NCBI RefSeq assembly: GCF_001570405.1
Contig: NZ_BBYM01000025.1
Span: forward strand, 1 to 64,000
Direction: 5' to 3'
Source: Microtetraspora niveoalba
GTDB lineage: Bacteria > Actinomycetota > Actinomycetes > Streptosporangiales > Streptosporangiaceae
Length of the DNA stretch: 64,000 bases
Both the position numbers and the translations under genes were made by a program. This document shows positions 9,865 to 16,329 of this stretch, one piece after another. The notes below the pieces were generated by a model. The model made no database searches. It saw nothing but the letters and a program-made list of their open reading frames with translations, and had not been told where the DNA came from. Within the stretch, counting starts at the first letter, position 1; each line of letters opens with the position of its first letter.

Positions 9865-12594
9865 ATGACGCTTCGGGGTGGGCGGCGCACCTTCGCCGCC
9901 GCGGTGGCGCTCGCGCTGGTGGTCGCGGGCGGGCTCGCCTGGTCGTTGTGGCCGTCCGAGCCGCGGGTGCGCGGCCAGGATGTGGCCGTCTCCGTGATGG
10001 ACGGCCCGGCCGGCGACCAGCGGGTGACGTTGGACGCCACCTTCTTCCCACCCGCCTCGGGCGGGAAGGCCCCGGCGGTGCTGCTCGCCCACGGCTTCGG
10101 CGGCAGCAAGGACGACCTGCGGGACGAGGCGGCGCGGCTGGCCGGGCGCGGCTACGCCGTGCTGACCTGGTCGGCCCGGGGGTTCGGGCGGTCCACCGGT
10201 GAGATCGCGCTGAACTCGCCGGACTACGAGGTGAAGGACGTCCGGGCGCTGGTCGACTGGCTCGCCCGCCGCCCCGACGTGCGGCTGGACGCGAGCGGCG
10301 ACCCCCGGGTGGGCATCGCGGGCGGCTCGTACGGCGGGGCGATCGCCCTGATGGCCGCCGCGTACGACGACAGGATCGACGCCATCGTGCCCCAGATCAC
10401 CTGGTACGACCTGGCCGACGCGCTCTTCCCCGAGTCGACGGGCCAGGGGCCGGAGCACGGTGTGTTCAAGAAGATGTGGGCCGGCCTCTTCTTCAGCGCG
10501 GGCGGCAGCGCGTTGTCCGGAGCCGCGGCCGGGGGTCCGGCCGCGCTCGCCGGAGGAGCGCCCGGCTCGACCCGGCCGAACGCCGACCAGGGCGCGGGCG
10601 GAAGCACGGATACGAGCACGGGCACGAGCACGGGCACGGCCGACGGCCCGGCGAAGGACGGCAAGACGGGCGACGGGACCGGCGGCAAGATGGGCGGCGG
10701 GACCGGCGACGGGAGCGGGACGTCCGGACGGGCCCAGTGCGGGCGGTTCCGGCCGGAGATCTGCGACATGTACCTGACCGTCGCGGAGACCGGCCGGGCC
10801 ACCCCCGAGGCCGTGAAGCTGCTGCGGGCGTCCAGCCCGGTGTCGGTGCCGGGCCGGATCAGGATCCCCACCCTGCTGATCCAGGGCCAGCGCGACTCGC
10901 TGTTCCCCCTCGCGCACGCCGACGCCAACGCCCGCGCGATCGCAGCGACCGGCGCGCCGGTGGAGATGGCCTGGATCAGCGGCGGTCACGACGGCGGCGG
11001 CTCCGAGGCCGACGACGAATGGGTGGAGGAGCGCACCGCGGCCTGGCTCGACCGCTGGCTCAAGGACTCGCCGGTTCCCGGCGTGCGGGCCGGCCGGACG
11101 TCCGCGGGTGTCGAGGGCTTCACGGTGTCCCGCGACGGCGGCAGGGACCCGGGCACACGGCGCTCCGTCGTGGTCCACGCGGCCGCGCCCTCGTACGCCG
11201 GTCTGGCGGGCGCCTCGCGCACCGAGGTGCCGATCGCCGGGCCGGTCCAGCCGATCGCGAACCCTCCCGGAGGCTCCCCCGCGTCCGTCTCGGTCGTGCC
11301 GGGCCTGAGCAGCCTGCTCGGGGGCGCGAGCGCGAGCGCCGGCGTCTCGGTGGACATTCCCGGCCAGGCCGCGGTGTTCGAGAGCGCCCCGCTGACGAAG
11401 CCGGTCCACGTCACCGGCTCCCCCAGCGTCAAGATCAAGGTGTACGGCACGGGCGAGGTCACGCTGTTCGCCAAGCTCTACGACGCGAGCGGCGGACGGC
11501 TCGCCGTGCTGCCGTCGAGCCTGGTCTCGCCGCTGCGCGTCACCGCCTCCGAGTCCGGCGCCGAGACGACCGTCACGCTTCCCGCGATCGACCGGCGCTT
11601 CGACGCGGGCCACCGGCTGCGGCTGGTGGTGGCGACCACGGACATGGGGTACGCGACGCCGTCCGCGCCCGCCGCGTACCGGGTGGGCCTCGCCGGCGGA
11701 GCCGTCTCGCTGCCCGTGGACGCGTCGCTCGTCACGCCGGCGACGGGGCCCGCCTGGTGGACGTGGGCGGCGCCGCTGGCCGCGATCGTGGTCGCGGCCG
11801 GGCTCCTGCTCGCCGGCCGCCGCCGTACCGTCCCGGACGGGGGCGGCGAGCCGGACGGCGTTCCGCTGCGCATCACCGGCCTGACCAAGCGCTATCGCAA
11901 CGGCGAGAAGGCGGTGGACGGCCTCTCCTTCCACGTCGAGAAGGGGCAGGTGCTGGGCCTGCTCGGGCCGAACGGCGCGGGCAAGACCACCACGATGCGG
12001 ATGATGATGGGCCTGATCCACCCGGACGAGGGCGAGATCCGCATCTTCGGCCGCCGGGTCGTCCCCGGCGCGCCGGTCCTGTCGCGACTCGGGTCGTTCG
12101 TGGAGGGGCCGGGGTTCCTGCCCCACCTCACCGGCCGGGCCAACCTGGAGCTCTACTGGCAGGCGACGGGACGGCCCGCCGAGGACGCCCACATGGAGGA
12201 GGCGCTGGAGATCGCCGGGCTCGGGGCGGCGCTGGAGCGGGCGGTGCGCACGTACTCCCAGGGGATGCGCCAGCGGCTGGCCATCGCCCAGGCGATGCTC
12301 GGCCTGCCCGACCTGCTCGTGCTCGACGAGCCCACGAACGGTCTCGACCCACCCCAGATCGCCGAGATGCGGGCCGTGCTCAAGGCGTACGCCGAGGGGG
12401 GCCGCACGGTGATCGTCTCCAGCCACCTGCTCGGCGAGGTCGAGCAGACCTGTACGCACGTGGTGGTCATGCGGCGCGGGCGGCTCGTCTTCCAGGGGCC
12501 CGTCGGCGACCTGCTCGCCACGCGCTCCCCCTCCGGCGGTCCCGGCCCCCGCCTGGAGGACGTCTTCCTCGACCTGATCGGAGAGTCCCGATGA
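9865..12594 (+). CDS. Alpha/beta hydrolase fused to ABC transporter ATPase
   Basis: A 909-residue fusion. Residues ~8-28 are a signal-anchor helix. Residues ~35-400 are an X-Pro dipeptidyl-peptidase (S15)/CocE-type hydrolase with nucleophile motif GGSYGG (Ser155), an acid in QGQRDS and a His in ISGGHDGG. A Gly/Thr/Asp-rich insert of about 75 residues interrupts it near 217-290. The C-terminal beta-sandwich of this hydrolase class follows (~430-625). Next are a second membrane helix (~632-653) and a complete ABC ATPase: Walker A GPNGAGKTT (701-709), signature YSQGMRQR and Walker B LLVLDEPTNGLDPP. The predicted topology puts the hydrolase outside and the ATPase in the cytoplasm. The stop overlaps the permease start as ATGA. 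The substrate is unknown. Confidence 0.9.
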   Translation: MTLRGGRRTFAAAVALALVVAGGLAWSLWPSEPRVRGQDVAVSVMDGPAGDQRVTLDATFFPPASGGKAPAVLLAHGFGGSKDDLRDEAARLAGRGYAVLTWSARGFGRSTGEIALNSPDYEVKDVRALVDWLARRPDVRLDASGDPRVGIAGGSYGGAIALMAAAYDDRIDAIVPQITWYDLADALFPESTGQGPEHGVFKKMWAGLFFSAGGSALSGAAAGGPAALAGGAPGSTRPNADQGAGGSTDTSTGTSTGTADGPAKDGKTGDGTGGKMGGGTGDGSGTSGRAQCGRFRPEICDMYLTVAETGRATPEAVKLLRASSPVSVPGRIRIPTLLIQGQRDSLFPLAHADANARAIAATGAPVEMAWISGGHDGGGSEADDEWVEERTAAWLDRWLKDSPVPGVRAGRTSAGVEGFTVSRDGGRDPGTRRSVVVHAAAPSYAGLAGASRTEVPIAGPVQPIANPPGGSPASVSVVPGLSSLLGGASASAGVSVDIPGQAAVFESAPLTKPVHVTGSPSVKIKVYGTGEVTLFAKLYDASGGRLAVLPSSLVSPLRVTASESGAETTVTLPAIDRRFDAGHRLRLVVATTDMGYATPSAPAAYRVGLAGGAVSLPVDASLVTPATGPAWWTWAAPLAAIVVAAGLLLAGRRRTVPDGGGEPDGVPLRITGLTKRYRNGEKAVDGLSFHVEKGQVLGLLGPNGAGKTTTMRMMMGLIHPDEGEIRIFGRRVVPGAPVLSRLGSFVEGPGFLPHLTGRANLELYWQATGRPAEDAHMEEALEIAGLGAALERAVRTYSQGMRQRLAIAQAMLGLPDLLVLDEPTNGLDPPQIAEMRAVLKAYAEGGRTVIVSSHLLGEVEQTCTHVVVMRRGRLVFQGPVGDLLATRSPSGGPGPRLEDVFLDLIGESR

Positions 12595-13505
12595 GCGTGA
12601 ACGGCGCCCCGGTCCCGGCGTCCGGGACCCGCGCGGCCGGCGTCCGGACGGCGGCGGGCGGCGGGACGGCGCGCGGGTACGCGCCCGGCCGCACCCTGCC
12701 GCTGCGCGTGGAGTTCGTCCGCCAGTTCCGGCGCCGCCGGACGATGGCGATGTTCGGGCTGCTGCTCGCGCTGCCGTGGGTCCTGGTGGTGGCGTTCCAG
12801 TTCGGCCCGGCGCCCGGGCGGGGCGGCGGCGGCCTGCGGATCTCCGACCTGGCCACCCAGGGCGGGCTGAACTTCGCCGCCTTCGTTCTGTCGGTGTCCG
12901 CGAGCTTCCTGCTGGCCGTCGCGGTGGCGCTGTTCTGCGGCGACACGGTGGCGAGCGAGGCGAGCTGGTCGTCGCTGCGCTACCTGCTCGCCGCGCCGGT
13001 GCCCCGCGACCGGCTGCTGCGGCAGAAGCTGATCGTCGCGATGGCCTACTCCGCGACCGCGGTGACCGTGCTGCCGCTCATGGCCCTGCTCGCGGGCACG
13101 GTCGCCTTCGGCTGGCACGACATCCAGGTCCCGGGCACCGGCGAGACGATCCCGGCCGCCGACGTGCTGCCGAGGTTCGCCGTGGTGGTGGGCTACGCGC
13201 TGGTGAGCCAGCTCGTCGTGGCGTCCCTCGCGTTCCTGCTGTCGGTCGGTACGGACTCGCCCCTCGGCGCGGTCGGCGGCGCGGTCGGACTGGTGATCGT
13301 GAGCACCATCCTGCAGGCGGTGGAGGCTCTGGGCTCCGTCCGCGAGTTCCTGCCCACGTTCTGGAACACCGCCTGGCTCGACGCCCTCTCCCCCGACCCC
13401 GACTACAGCGGGATGATCAAGGGCGTGGCCGTGTCCGTGACGTACGCGGTGATCCTCGTCGCGTTCGCCTTCCGGCGGTTCCGGGCCAAGGACGTGGTGT
13501 CCTGA
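12591..13505 (+). CDS. ABC-2 type permease, partner of hydrolase-ATPase fusion
   Basis: A 304-residue protein with a ~40-residue Gly/Ala/Arg-rich cytoplasmic N-terminus and six predicted transmembrane helices, in the arrangement of ABC-2 exporter permeases. FVRQFRRRRT before helix 1 and SWSSLRYLLAAPVPR after helix 2 match the coupling region of this family. Its ATG overlaps the stop of the fusion gene, so the two are translationally coupled and almost certainly form one exporter. The gene ends before a long hairpin. The exported compound cannot be deduced. Confidence 0.85.
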   Translation: MSVNGAPVPASGTRAAGVRTAAGGGTARGYAPGRTLPLRVEFVRQFRRRRTMAMFGLLLALPWVLVVAFQFGPAPGRGGGGLRISDLATQGGLNFAAFVLSVSASFLLAVAVALFCGDTVASEASWSSLRYLLAAPVPRDRLLRQKLIVAMAYSATAVTVLPLMALLAGTVAFGWHDIQVPGTGETIPAADVLPRFAVVVGYALVSQLVVASLAFLLSVGTDSPLGAVGGAVGLVIVSTILQAVEALGSVREFLPTFWNTAWLDALSPDPDYSGMIKGVAVSVTYAVILVAFAFRRFRAKDVVS

Positions 13506-13581: not shown

Positions 13582-14007
13582 TCATCCCCCCTCGATCGTC
13601 ACGCCCATCGAACGGGCGGTGCCGGCGATGATCCTCATGGCCGTCTCGACGTCCGTCGTGTTCAGGTCGGGGAGCTTGCGTTCGGCGATGCTCCGGAGCT
13701 GGGTGGAGGTCAGGCTTCCGGCCCGGATGTGACCGGGACGCGCCGACCCCTTCGCCCCCAGCGCCTGCCGGATCAGGAACGAGGTCGGAGGCGTCTTGTA
13801 CCGCAACGCCACGGACCTGTCGTCGAACACGGTCACCACCACGGGCACGACCTGGCCGCGCTGCGCGGCCGTCGCCTCGTCGTACTCCCGCTTGACGGCG
13901 ACGATGTTCGCCCCTGTCGGGCCGAGCACCTTCCCGAGCTCGGCCACGGCGGCGTTGCCCGCCTCGAGCTGGATGGTCGCCTCGTGAAGCCTCCGCTTCG
14001 GTGGCAT
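13582..14007 (-). CDS. Divergent ribosomal protein L11 (uL11) paralogue
   Basis: A 141-residue protein of normal L11 length. The C-terminal rRNA-binding half is well conserved: KTPPTS, KGS.RPG, DLNTTDVETA and the terminal IAGTARSMGVTIEG. The N-terminal half differs in the segment that normally reads PAPPVGPALGQ; here residues 19-29 read AAVAELGKVLG, so all its prolines are gone. In ordinary L11 those prolines line the thiopeptide (thiostrepton, micrococcin) site at the GTPase centre. The gene is not in a rplK-rplA setting. It stands alone, divergent from a MerR gene, with a MerR-type promoter. ATG at 14007 has GAAGGGA upstream. It may be a conditionally expressed, drug-insensitive L11; regulatory or moonlighting roles are alternatives. 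Confidence 0.85.
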   Translation of the reverse strand: MPPKRRLHEATIQLEAGNAAVAELGKVLGPTGANIVAVKREYDEATAAQRGQVVPVVVTVFDDRSVALRYKTPPTSFLIRQALGAKGSARPGHIRAGSLTSTQLRSIAERKLPDLNTTDVETAMRIIAGTARSMGVTIEGG

Positions 14008-14041
14008 CGTTCATCCCTTCACTGGAACGTGTTTCGGGTGA

Positions 14042-14072
14042 ACGCTAGGAATTCCAGCCGCTGGAGACTCAA
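14042..14072 (-). promoter_or_regulatory. MerR-type promoter of the L11 paralogue
   Basis: On the minus strand, -35 TTGAGT (14067-14072), a 19-bp spacer and -10 TAGCGT (14042-14047). The spacer holds TCCAG-CCG-CTGGA (14053-14065). A 19-bp spacer with a centred dyad is the mark of promoters activated by MerR-family DNA distortion. Confidence 0.8.
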
Positions 14073-14087
14073 CCCGTCGGGGTCGGC

Positions 14088-14118
14088 TTGACTCTCCAGT
14101 CGCTGGAGGGTCCAGGCT
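14088..14118 (+). promoter_or_regulatory. MerR-type promoter of the merR-like gene
   Basis: -35 TTGACT (14088-14093), 19-bp spacer, -10-like CAGGCT (14113-14118). The spacer contains the dyad CTCCAG-TCG-CTGGAG (14094-14108). The sequence is nearly the same as the opposing promoter read on its own strand. The expected transcription start falls on the GTG at 14125, giving a leaderless mRNA. Confidence 0.8.
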
Positions 14119-14124
14119 GTCGGA

Positions 14125-15063
14125 GTGGACGACAGCACGGAGCCGCTGACCATCGGACAGCTATCGAAACGGACGAAGGTGCCGGTCCGCACCATCCGCT
14201 TCTGGTCCGACATCGGCCTCATCCCGCCCAGCGCGCGGAGCGCCGGCGGTTACCGGCTCTACGCGCCGGAGGCGGTGGCCCGTCTGGAGCTGGTGGCGAC
14301 ACTGCGCGACCTCGGAATCGATCTGCCAACCGTCCAGCGGGTCCTCTCCGACCGGGCCACCGTCGCGGAAGTGGCCCGCACCCACGTCGCCGCCCTCGAC
14401 GCCGAGATCAGGATCCTTCGCATACGTCGTGCGGTGCTGCGGTCGATGGCCGAACGTGACAACCCACCAGAGGAGATGAGGACCATGCACAAGCTCGCAC
14501 GCCTGTCCACACAGGAACGGCAGCGCATCGTCGGCGCGTTCATCGGCGAGGTGTGCGACGGAGCCGACCCTGAATCATTCGGCGCGCGGATCGCCCATAC
14601 GATGGCCCAGAGCGTGGTCGAGCTACCCGACGATCCGACGACGCAACAGGTCGACGCGTGGGTGGAGCTCACTGAACTCATGAGCGACCCGGGGTTCCGG
14701 CAGCGCGTACGCCAGATGATGGTGGCCGCCGCCGAGAATCCCGCGGAGCCCTGGCAACCGCCGTTCGACCCGCAGATGGTCCTGGAGCGGGCCTGCGAGG
14801 CGCTCGACTCGGGCGTCGCACCCGAGTCCGAGCGGGCCGGAGCGATCCTGGACGGCCTGATCGACCCGGATATGCCCGTCGACGAGCGCGTCAGGCTCGC
14901 CGATGAGTTGGAGACGTTCACGGACCGGTCGGTGGAGCGGTACTGGCAGCTCGCGGGAATGATCAACGGACGGCCGCCGTTCCCGTCGAAAGTGCCCGCT
15001 TTCGAGTGGTTCATCGCGGCGCTGCGCGCCGGCGACCACCGCGCCCCGGCCGACCGCCCGTAG
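14125..15063 (+). CDS. MerR family transcriptional regulator
   Basis: A 312-residue protein. Residues ~8-76 form the MerR winged helix (TIGQLSKRTKVPVRTIRFWS, then GYRLY), followed by a dimerisation helix. Residues ~120-300 form an all-helical, acidic effector region that I cannot assign; it is not the TipAS fold and lacks the metal-binding cysteines of CueR/MerR. The GTG start has no ribosome binding site and coincides with the predicted transcription start, so a leaderless transcript is likely. Its own promoter and that of the divergent L11 paralogue carry the same dyad in 19-bp spacers, so it most likely controls both. The inducing ligand is unknown. Confidence 0.9.
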   Translation: MDDSTEPLTIGQLSKRTKVPVRTIRFWSDIGLIPPSARSAGGYRLYAPEAVARLELVATLRDLGIDLPTVQRVLSDRATVAEVARTHVAALDAEIRILRIRRAVLRSMAERDNPPEEMRTMHKLARLSTQERQRIVGAFIGEVCDGADPESFGARIAHTMAQSVVELPDDPTTQQVDAWVELTELMSDPGFRQRVRQMMVAAAENPAEPWQPPFDPQMVLERACEALDSGVAPESERAGAILDGLIDPDMPVDERVRLADELETFTDRSVERYWQLAGMINGRPPFPSKVPAFEWFIAALRAGDHRAPADRP

Positions 15064-15315: not shown

Positions 15316-16329
15316 TCAGGACTCCTCACTCGGGGGGCACAGGCGCCGGTGCACCACGGTCAGGTGCCGCGCCATCGCGTCGCGGGCGCGTACGGCGTCG
15401 CCCGCGGCGATGGCGTCGTAGATCTCCTGATGGGCGGCCAGGGTCCGCTCGGTCGCCTGCGGGCTCGTCCCCGCCGAGTAGTGGGCGTGGCGCGAGCGGG
15501 CGAGCGACTGCAGCGAGGCCGCGATGGCGGGGTTGCCGCTGGCCATGCCCAGCGCCGCATGGAACCGCACGGACTCGGCGGTGAACAGGTCGGGCGCCGG
15601 TGCGGCACGGCGAGCCTCGTCGAGGGCCTCCCTCAGCGCGGTCAGCCCGTCAGGGAGCCGGCGGAACGCCGCCAGTTCGGCCGCGGCCGGTTCGAGGGCA
15701 CGCTGCGCCTCGATCAGCTCATCGGGCGACAGCCCGCCTTCGTGCAGTTGCGCGGACAGGGCGTCGGCGAACTCCTCGATCCGGCCGTCGGGGGTGCCCT
15801 CGTCGTCGGGGTCGAGCCGCCGGTAGCCGCCCGCCCAGTACAGCAGCGGGTCGCCCTCGGTCCCGCCCGCCGCGACCACCTCCCCGATCAGGATCCGGTG
15901 GTCGCCGCCGGGGAGGATGGCATGCAGCCGGGTGTCGAACCAGCTCAGGCAGCCGGAAACGACGGGGGCGCCGGTCCGCTCCGGGGCGGTGATGACACCG
16001 GGAAACGCGCCCTCGGCCCGGCCGCGGCCCCGAGTGGAGAAGTACTGCGACACGTCGCGCTGCCCGCTCGCCAGCACACTGATCGAGAAGCAGCCCGCCG
16101 CCTCCACCTCGTCGAGGAAGGGGCTGTGGGCGTTGATCGATACGGCGACCAGCAGGGGGTTCAGCGAGAGCGAGACGAACGAGGTGGCGGTGATGCCATA
16201 GAGGTGCTCGCCGTTGCGGGTCGCCACCACCGTCACGCCGGAGGCGAACCGGCCCGCCGCCCGCCGGAACGCCGCGGCCGTGTTCACCGAGACGTCAGCC
16301 GCGACGCCGGACGCGGTGTCCGCGGTCAT
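15316..16329 (-). CDS. Flavin reductase fused to an FCD domain
   Basis: A 337-residue protein of unusual make-up. Residues ~17-170 are a flavin reductase-like FMN-binding split barrel (FASGVTVVATRNG, GITATSFVSLSLNPLL, the family signatures), as in the small components of two-component flavin monooxygenases. Residues ~205-330 are an all-helical FCD domain (ALEPAAAELAAF, SVRFHAALGMASGNP, AHQEIYDAIAAGD), normally the ligand- and metal-binding half of FadR/GntR regulators. No DNA-binding domain is present. It is the last gene of the aromatic operon and overlaps the upstream gene by 4 bp (ATGA). It probably supplies reduced flavin to the HpaB-type hydroxylase, with the FCD part perhaps sensing the aromatic substrate. 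Confidence 0.85.
   Translation of the reverse strand: MTADTASGVAADVSVNTAAAFRRAAGRFASGVTVVATRNGEHLYGITATSFVSLSLNPLLVAVSINAHSPFLDEVEAAGCFSISVLASGQRDVSQYFSTRGRGRAEGAFPGVITAPERTGAPVVSGCLSWFDTRLHAILPGGDHRILIGEVVAAGGTEGDPLLYWAGGYRRLDPDDEGTPDGRIEEFADALSAQLHEGGLSPDELIEAQRALEPAAAELAAFRRLPDGLTALREALDEARRAAPAPDLFTAESVRFHAALGMASGNPAIAASLQSLARSRHAHYSAGTSPQATERTLAAHQEIYDAIAAGDAVRARDAMARHLTVVHRRLCPPSEES

Follow-up and report, generated by a model that had tools for sequence, protein, structure and literature searches.

A predicted MerR-regulated L11 paralogue lacking the thiopeptide-contact prolines in Streptosporangiaceae

TipA is a MerR-family activator that binds thiopeptides. The GyrB of the novobiocin producer is an inducible, drug-insensitive copy of a drug target; it resembles the case described here in being a regulated second target gene, although both target and regulator differ. 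The TSNR_N thiostrepton-resistance methylases would protect the same site as the protein that concerns us but, unlike it, act on 23S rRNA. The thiazole rings of thiostrepton are reported to stack on prolines of the N-domain of ribosomal protein L11, and mutations at those prolines to cut thiopeptide binding and give resistance (PMC5960728). The closest described counterparts are TclQ and TclT, L11 paralogues of micrococcin/thiocillin clusters in Staphylococcaceae and Bacillus cereus (PMC10704990). TclQ is reported to replace L11, giving micrococcin self-resistance (PMC6804068), whereas ribosome binding by the L11 copies of thiocillin clusters is stated to be undetermined (PMC10704990). In the literature searched, from whose reach most subscription journals were excluded, we found no report of an L11 gene paired with a MerR gene.

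We analysed such a pair in a window of 64,000 nucleotides (the whole stretch of DNA under study) from a genome of 8.47 Mb. The features are listed below; L11p denotes the paralogue.

13582..14007, minus strand: L11 paralogue (L11p), an ORF with an ATG start encoding 141 aa, with the Pfam N- and C-terminal L11 domains
13921..13953, minus strand: residues 19-29 of L11p, AAVAELGKVLG, corresponding to the thiopeptide-contact loop (from the sequence and alignment column counts)
14042..14072, minus strand: predicted L11p promoter, TTGAGT, 19-bp spacer with the dyad CTCCAGCGGCTGGA, TAGCGT (from the sequence and its genome-wide uniqueness)
14088..14118, plus strand: predicted autoregulatory promoter/operator of merR, TTGACT, 19-bp spacer with the dyad CTCCAGTCGCTGGAG, CAGGCT (from the sequence)
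14125..15063, plus strand: MerR-family regulator, 312 aa, GTG start (Pfam MerR_1, PF13411, 67.8 bits; AlphaFold2 model)
14467..15027, plus strand: predicted all-helical sensor domain of MerR, approximately residues 115-301 (domain-only model; no PDB fold match)

An earlier note, made from the letters of this DNA, had described a full-length L11-like protein, and the 141-aa ORF agrees with this: both L11 domains score above their Pfam cut-offs (PF00298 Ribosomal_L11, 82.3 bits; PF03946 Ribosomal_L11_N, 50 bits). Given that the score against TIGR01632 (125.3 bits) is below the equivalog cut-off of 141.85, L11p is a recognisable but atypical L11. For L11p to be a paralogue, another L11 had to exist in the genome, and a canonical rplK is indeed present on contig 12 (G000:C12:92392), its product being 51% identical to L11p. 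Like TclQ, L11p is a second L11 in a genome with a normal rplK. The translated ORF reads AAVAELGKVLG at residues 19-29, exactly as first noted. The usual segment had been given as PAPPVGPALG; it is proline-rich, as claimed, but the canonical L11 of this genome (loop ATPAPPVGTALG) has PAPPVGTALG, with Thr rather than Pro at position 26. In L11p, one of the prolines at positions 22 and 23 is deleted and the other replaced by Glu, and position 26 is Lys; we take these positions to follow the numbering of E. coli L11. Canonical uL11 and L11p have both domains and the C-terminal signature in common, and differ in the equivalog score, the loss of P22/P23, Lys26 and the MerR-type promoter.

We searched for second L11 copies in 149 genomes of relatives and in 341 genomes of the family Streptosporangiaceae, counting as members of the paralogue set altered-loop L11s with their surrounding DNA. 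The set comprises at least 37 members, one per genome, including that of the window. At least 36 of the 341 family genomes are represented, and two family copies fall outside the set, one truncated at the end of a contig (G392) and one decayed (G083); a further member (G091), of the clade A described below, comes from another family of the same order. The decayed copy (L224, G083:C5:129929) is a remnant in which 27 residues match; next to it lie a promoter of the MerR type and a merR match over the full length. Conservation of the pair across Streptosporangiaceae, raised as a check in the earlier note, thus holds in that the pair recurs, but its distribution is patchy. A second L11 match is present in all 37 genomes that have L11p, and six of these second L11s are 76-94% identical to the canonical query.

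The loss of the proline segment proved to be a fixed trait across the 37 paralogues examined. In every one of them, one of Pro22 and Pro23 is deleted and the other replaced by Thr, Asn, Glu, Asp, Ala or Ser; by alignment columns, both prolines are kept in 26 of 26 canonical L11s and in 0 of 37 paralogues. Position 26 is Lys in 37/37 paralogues, as opposed to Thr or Pro in 26/26 canonical proteins, and position 75 is Thr in 37/37, as opposed to Ala in 26/26. The two groups agree at Gly25, Leu28 and Gly29 and over much of the C-terminal part, GTARSMG included. TclQ keeps PAPPVGT, whereas L11p loses both prolines; TclQ thus does not work through proline loss, and L11p would represent a different solution.

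The paralogues form two clades: clade A, with eight members of the window type and loops such as AAVAELGKVLG, and clade B, with 29 members and loops such as SPATVGKDLG. In a tree of the 37 paralogues, 26 canonical L11s (six from L11p genomes and 20 from hand-picked loci) and two TclQ sequences, a single branch (98/97) sets the paralogues apart from all others, so that L11p falls outside the TclQ branch. The same split was recovered with the loop columns removed (91/86, not starred), and clade A stands on its own at 100/99 in both trees, for which the tree program gave a long-branch warning. A class-wide search of 394 genomes with a clade-B profile (E <= 1e-55) yielded nothing above canonical-L11 scores; its 14 matches (189-193 bits) were taken as canonical L11, and the nine of them placed in the trees lie outside the paralogue clade. 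This negative result is weak evidence of absence, since the search had no positive control, no known clade-B genome having been matched.

The stem of clade A measures 1.12 changes per column, and divergence of this degree would suit a protein that acts outside ribosomes, either by binding a drug or factor as a free decoy or by acting on RelA in trans. In E. coli, the L11 N-terminus is reported to activate RelA in trans by itself (PMC3138739). However, the C-domain signature is strongly conserved, and in a drug decoy the drug-contact prolines should have been retained, leaving a non-ribosomal role improbable. We also considered whether L11p might be a decaying, functionless duplicate. Only an L11p remnant survives in G083, beside a promoter and a full-length merR match, and the merR of G373 is broken. 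However, dN/dS was 0.08-0.27 in 8/8 pairs of L11p relatives (the window gene is in none of these pairs), and L11p promoters are conserved. We conclude that the L11p pairs tested are, as judged from these ratios, under purifying selection; a decaying duplicate is barely credible.

The starts of L11p and merR are separated by 117 bases, and both promoters lie within this interval. In full, the L11p promoter reads TTGAGT-CTCCAGCGGCTGGAATTCC-TAGCGT and the merR promoter TTGACT-CTCCAGTCGCTGGAGGGTC-CAGGCT, the latter ending 6 bp upstream of the GTG start, and each has a CTCCAG-N3-CTGGAR dyad in its spacer. The divergent MerR gene, the MerR-type promoters, the 19-bp spacers and the matching dyads described in the earlier note are all borne out by the sequence. 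In the window genome, the operator pattern occurs with up to one mismatch only at these two promoters, and a reversed-pattern control gave 0 matches.

A MerR-type promoter with a 19-bp spacer was recognised by pattern before 34 of the 37 L11p genes; those of the remaining three (G063, G271 and G258) were read by eye, and have TTGCGT, TTGCAC or TTGAAT as the -35 element. A related MerR gene is divergent from L11p at 30 of the 37 loci (28/29 in clade B and 2/8 in clade A). Full-length matches make up 28 of these 30 neighbours; merR is split over two frames in G238, and the merR beside L11p in G373 lacks its middle. The latter locus (L190, 5981-6270) has an intact L11p next to the merR remnant, and a second merR of the window type is found in the same genome (L059). 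The MerR-type promoter is also present at the seven L11p loci that have no adjacent MerR. In two genomes with merR elsewhere (G063 and G091), the sole other operator site in the genome directly precedes the distant merR, whose product shares 48-52% identity with the window MerR and with that of G037, and a similar element precedes a distant merR in G010 and G294. The dyad of the L11p promoter differs in G271, G256 and G263; in G256 and G263, the distant related merRs have operators that do not match, and no related MerR was found in the genome of G271.

We also ran the exact operator pattern, which is stricter, on the 341 family genomes, with controls giving 0. It occurs at 31 sites in 29 genomes, and 29 of the 31 sites lie just before an L11p, counting the decayed copy of G083 and the contig-cut copy of G392; of the 36 family L11p promoters, 9 escape this stricter pattern, including that of the window. 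The two other sites are at G010:C16 (L204), before a gene for a DUF2268 predicted protease, and at G072:C42. MerR control of L11p, as claimed in the earlier note, is supported because the pairing is conserved and the operator is nearly private, linking even genes that are not adjacent, although the wiring is not uniform (G373, G238, G271, G256 and G263 depart from it). We conclude that there is good evidence, at the level of sequence, for MerR and L11p forming a small dedicated regulon, and that its wiring is strongly supported.

What MerR would sense is less readily deduced. An AlphaFold2 model of the full protein (mean pLDDT 91.4) has a MerR head followed by a linker helix and, at the C-terminus, an all-helical domain of approximately 190 residues, and the sensor domain modelled alone gave a mean pLDDT of 90.8. 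Foldseek matched this domain to no PDB structure at E <= 0.001 (best E 0.37 among the top 50 of 58 matches), and no Pfam family matched it at E <= 0.001. Profile matches of MerR include CadR, the TipA N-domain and others, and its significant PDB sequence matches fall within residues 1-125, which comprise the DNA-binding head and the linker. Since the sensor matched no fold in the PDB and TipAS is absent from the Pfam matches, the parallel with TipA drawn in the earlier note is functional at most. The two would have in common a MerR-family activator, a similar DNA-binding head and possibly a class of ligand, whereas the window MerR shows no TipAS match and the gene it would regulate is an L11 paralogue. 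A TipA-like sensor was set aside as a candidate, given that Pfam, PDB sequences and Foldseek lend it no support.

Relatives of the regulator extend well beyond L11p. In a scan of named genomes with the sensor domain, one of the best 80 of 549 loci had an L11 gene in the flanking DNA retrieved, and the operator lies 22-38 bp before the regulator's own start in 76 of 76 full-length relatives among these 80 (up to three mismatches). The 80 loci (L049-L128) represent a MerR type common among actinomycetes, whose helical sensor domain has no PDB match; it has a TTGAGTCTCCAGN3CTGGA-like element very close to its own start and mostly no obvious second target. Given that these regulators are more widespread than the pair and self-regulated, L11p appears to be one use of the regulator type, and because regulators of this type commonly occur with no L11 gene beside them, the ligand may be something other than a drug acting at the L11 site. 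Thirty-three genomes with related MerRs but no adjacent L11p were searched for strict sites, which were found in 21; 21 of the 25 sites were merR's own, which weakens any firm statement on the ligand. Of the other four, one lies in Streptosporangium amethystogenes (G373) and is its L11p promoter; the remaining three are L264, L278 and L280, the last, in Streptosporangium minutum, preceding a gene that is VOC-like by eye. The DUF2268 gene (L204) and the VOC-like gene (L280) are possible other targets of related MerRs.

We favour, at somewhat better than even confidence, a model in which MerR induces L11p, which takes the place of L11 and reduces sensitivity to thiopeptide-type inhibitors, the pair being an inducible two-gene target-replacement module. 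Without ligand, MerR would occupy both 19-bp-spacer operators, that of merR and that of L11p, and hold L11p at a low level. A ligand, probably a thiopeptide-type antibiotic of the GTPase centre or a signal of its action, would bind the helical sensor domain, whereupon MerR would re-align the promoter, as MerR activators generally do, and L11p would be made. L11p would then bind H43/H44 of 23S rRNA through its conserved C-domain and replace normal L11 in new ribosomes; without the proline platform for thiazole stacking, these ribosomes would work despite the drug. Paralogy, proline loss, the nearly private operator, gene pairing and purifying selection can be read from the sequences; the MerR mechanism, drawn from what is generally known of MerR activators, and the ligand, ribosome incorporation and resistance are inferred. 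Counted in favour of target replacement are the loop change in 37/37 paralogues with C-terminal residues such as GTARSMG kept, the low dN/dS ratios, the second L11 present in all 37 genomes, the MerR-type promoters, divergent merR genes and operator sites, the reported stacking of thiostrepton on the L11 prolines, the reported replacement of L11 by TclQ, and the ABC-F-like gene of G010 described below; counted against it are the proline retention of TclQ, the lack of a TipAS-like match, the few L11 neighbours of related MerRs, the non-uniform wiring, the promoters that escape the stricter pattern, and the 32 loci, described below, at which no thiopeptide genes were recognised.

The same loop change could instead serve regulated ribosome specialisation, with L11p altering the function of stalk-base factors (RelA activation, EF-G, release factors). 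Ribosomes carrying it would be relaxed under a stress sensed by MerR, and drug insensitivity would be a by-product. In E. coli, RelA-dependent (p)ppGpp synthesis is reported to need the L11 N-terminus, mutation of which gives a relaxed phenotype (PMC3138739); a stringent-response function therefore stays in contention. Consistent with this, the most striking fixed changes are in the N-domain loop, with Lys26 in 37/37 paralogues, and related MerRs are widespread and mostly do not adjoin L11 (among the best 80 of 549 loci). However, the exact site is found in 29 of 341 family genomes, and so patchy a distribution is more what one would expect of an optional defence than of a core response to stress; we regard specialisation as unlikely, though worth serious attention. 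In its fuller form, an inducible and reversible switch in which an undescribed helical sensor governs a Lys-loop L11 that is both thiopeptide-insensitive and uncoupled from Rel, it is likewise a doubtful prospect.

Replacement of L11 by a drug-insensitive form, swapped in when needed by some soil actinomycetes, is the most likely role of L11p. Three points are new here: the pair is conserved, the loop change is fixed, and the operator is nearly private and connects the two genes even where they lie apart. If the model is correct, the system would be a natural, regulated L11 swap with no visible tie to antibiotic gene clusters, and a ready-made experiment on the part played by L11 prolines in drug binding and stringent control. 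Its sensor domain, which matched no solved structure, might bind a GTPase-centre antibiotic, and its operator would serve as a diagnostic mark in the search for similar systems.

The neighbourhoods bear on whether L11p is instead a self-resistance gene of a ribosome-inhibitor producer with its biosynthetic cluster elsewhere in the genome. An rplK that is duplicated, phylogenetically odd or borne on a cluster is reported as an indicator of producers of protein-synthesis inhibitors (PMC9290621), and TclQ is such a case (PMC6804068, PMC10704990). TclQ adjoins thiopeptide genes, whereas none were recognised, by clustering and by eye, around the 32 of 37 L11p loci with long flanks, and none of the four window proteins that we profile-searched is thiopeptide-related. 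Moreover, ten of these 32 loci, from six genera, have a common set of neighbours, so the pair there looks inherited with the chromosome. Judged from these neighbourhoods, a producer's self-resistance gene is improbable.

A TSNR_N methylase was found in 0 of the 37 L11p genomes and in 2 of 42 others; this is compatible with resistance, but the cases are too few to prove anything. In G010, a gene directly upstream of L11p on the same strand (L034, 5863-7752) encodes two ABC ATPase domains with no membrane domain among its matches, and is ABC-F-like; this single case fits a context of ribosome protection. ABC-type genes occur at a few other L11p loci in no common arrangement, and the ABC transporter/hydrolase genes of the window, which are convergent with L11p, were set aside as parts of the module. 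One of these window genes is a 909-aa ORF on the plus strand (9865-12594) with Peptidase_S15, PepX_C and ABC_tran domains (Pfam), an S15/alpha-beta-hydrolase fused to an ABC ATPase, and the ORF after it, which ends at 13505, has an end that by eye resembles a membrane permease. On the minus strand, positions 15316-16329 hold a flavin reductase domain and an FCD regulator-type domain in one ORF, a combination that looks unusual.
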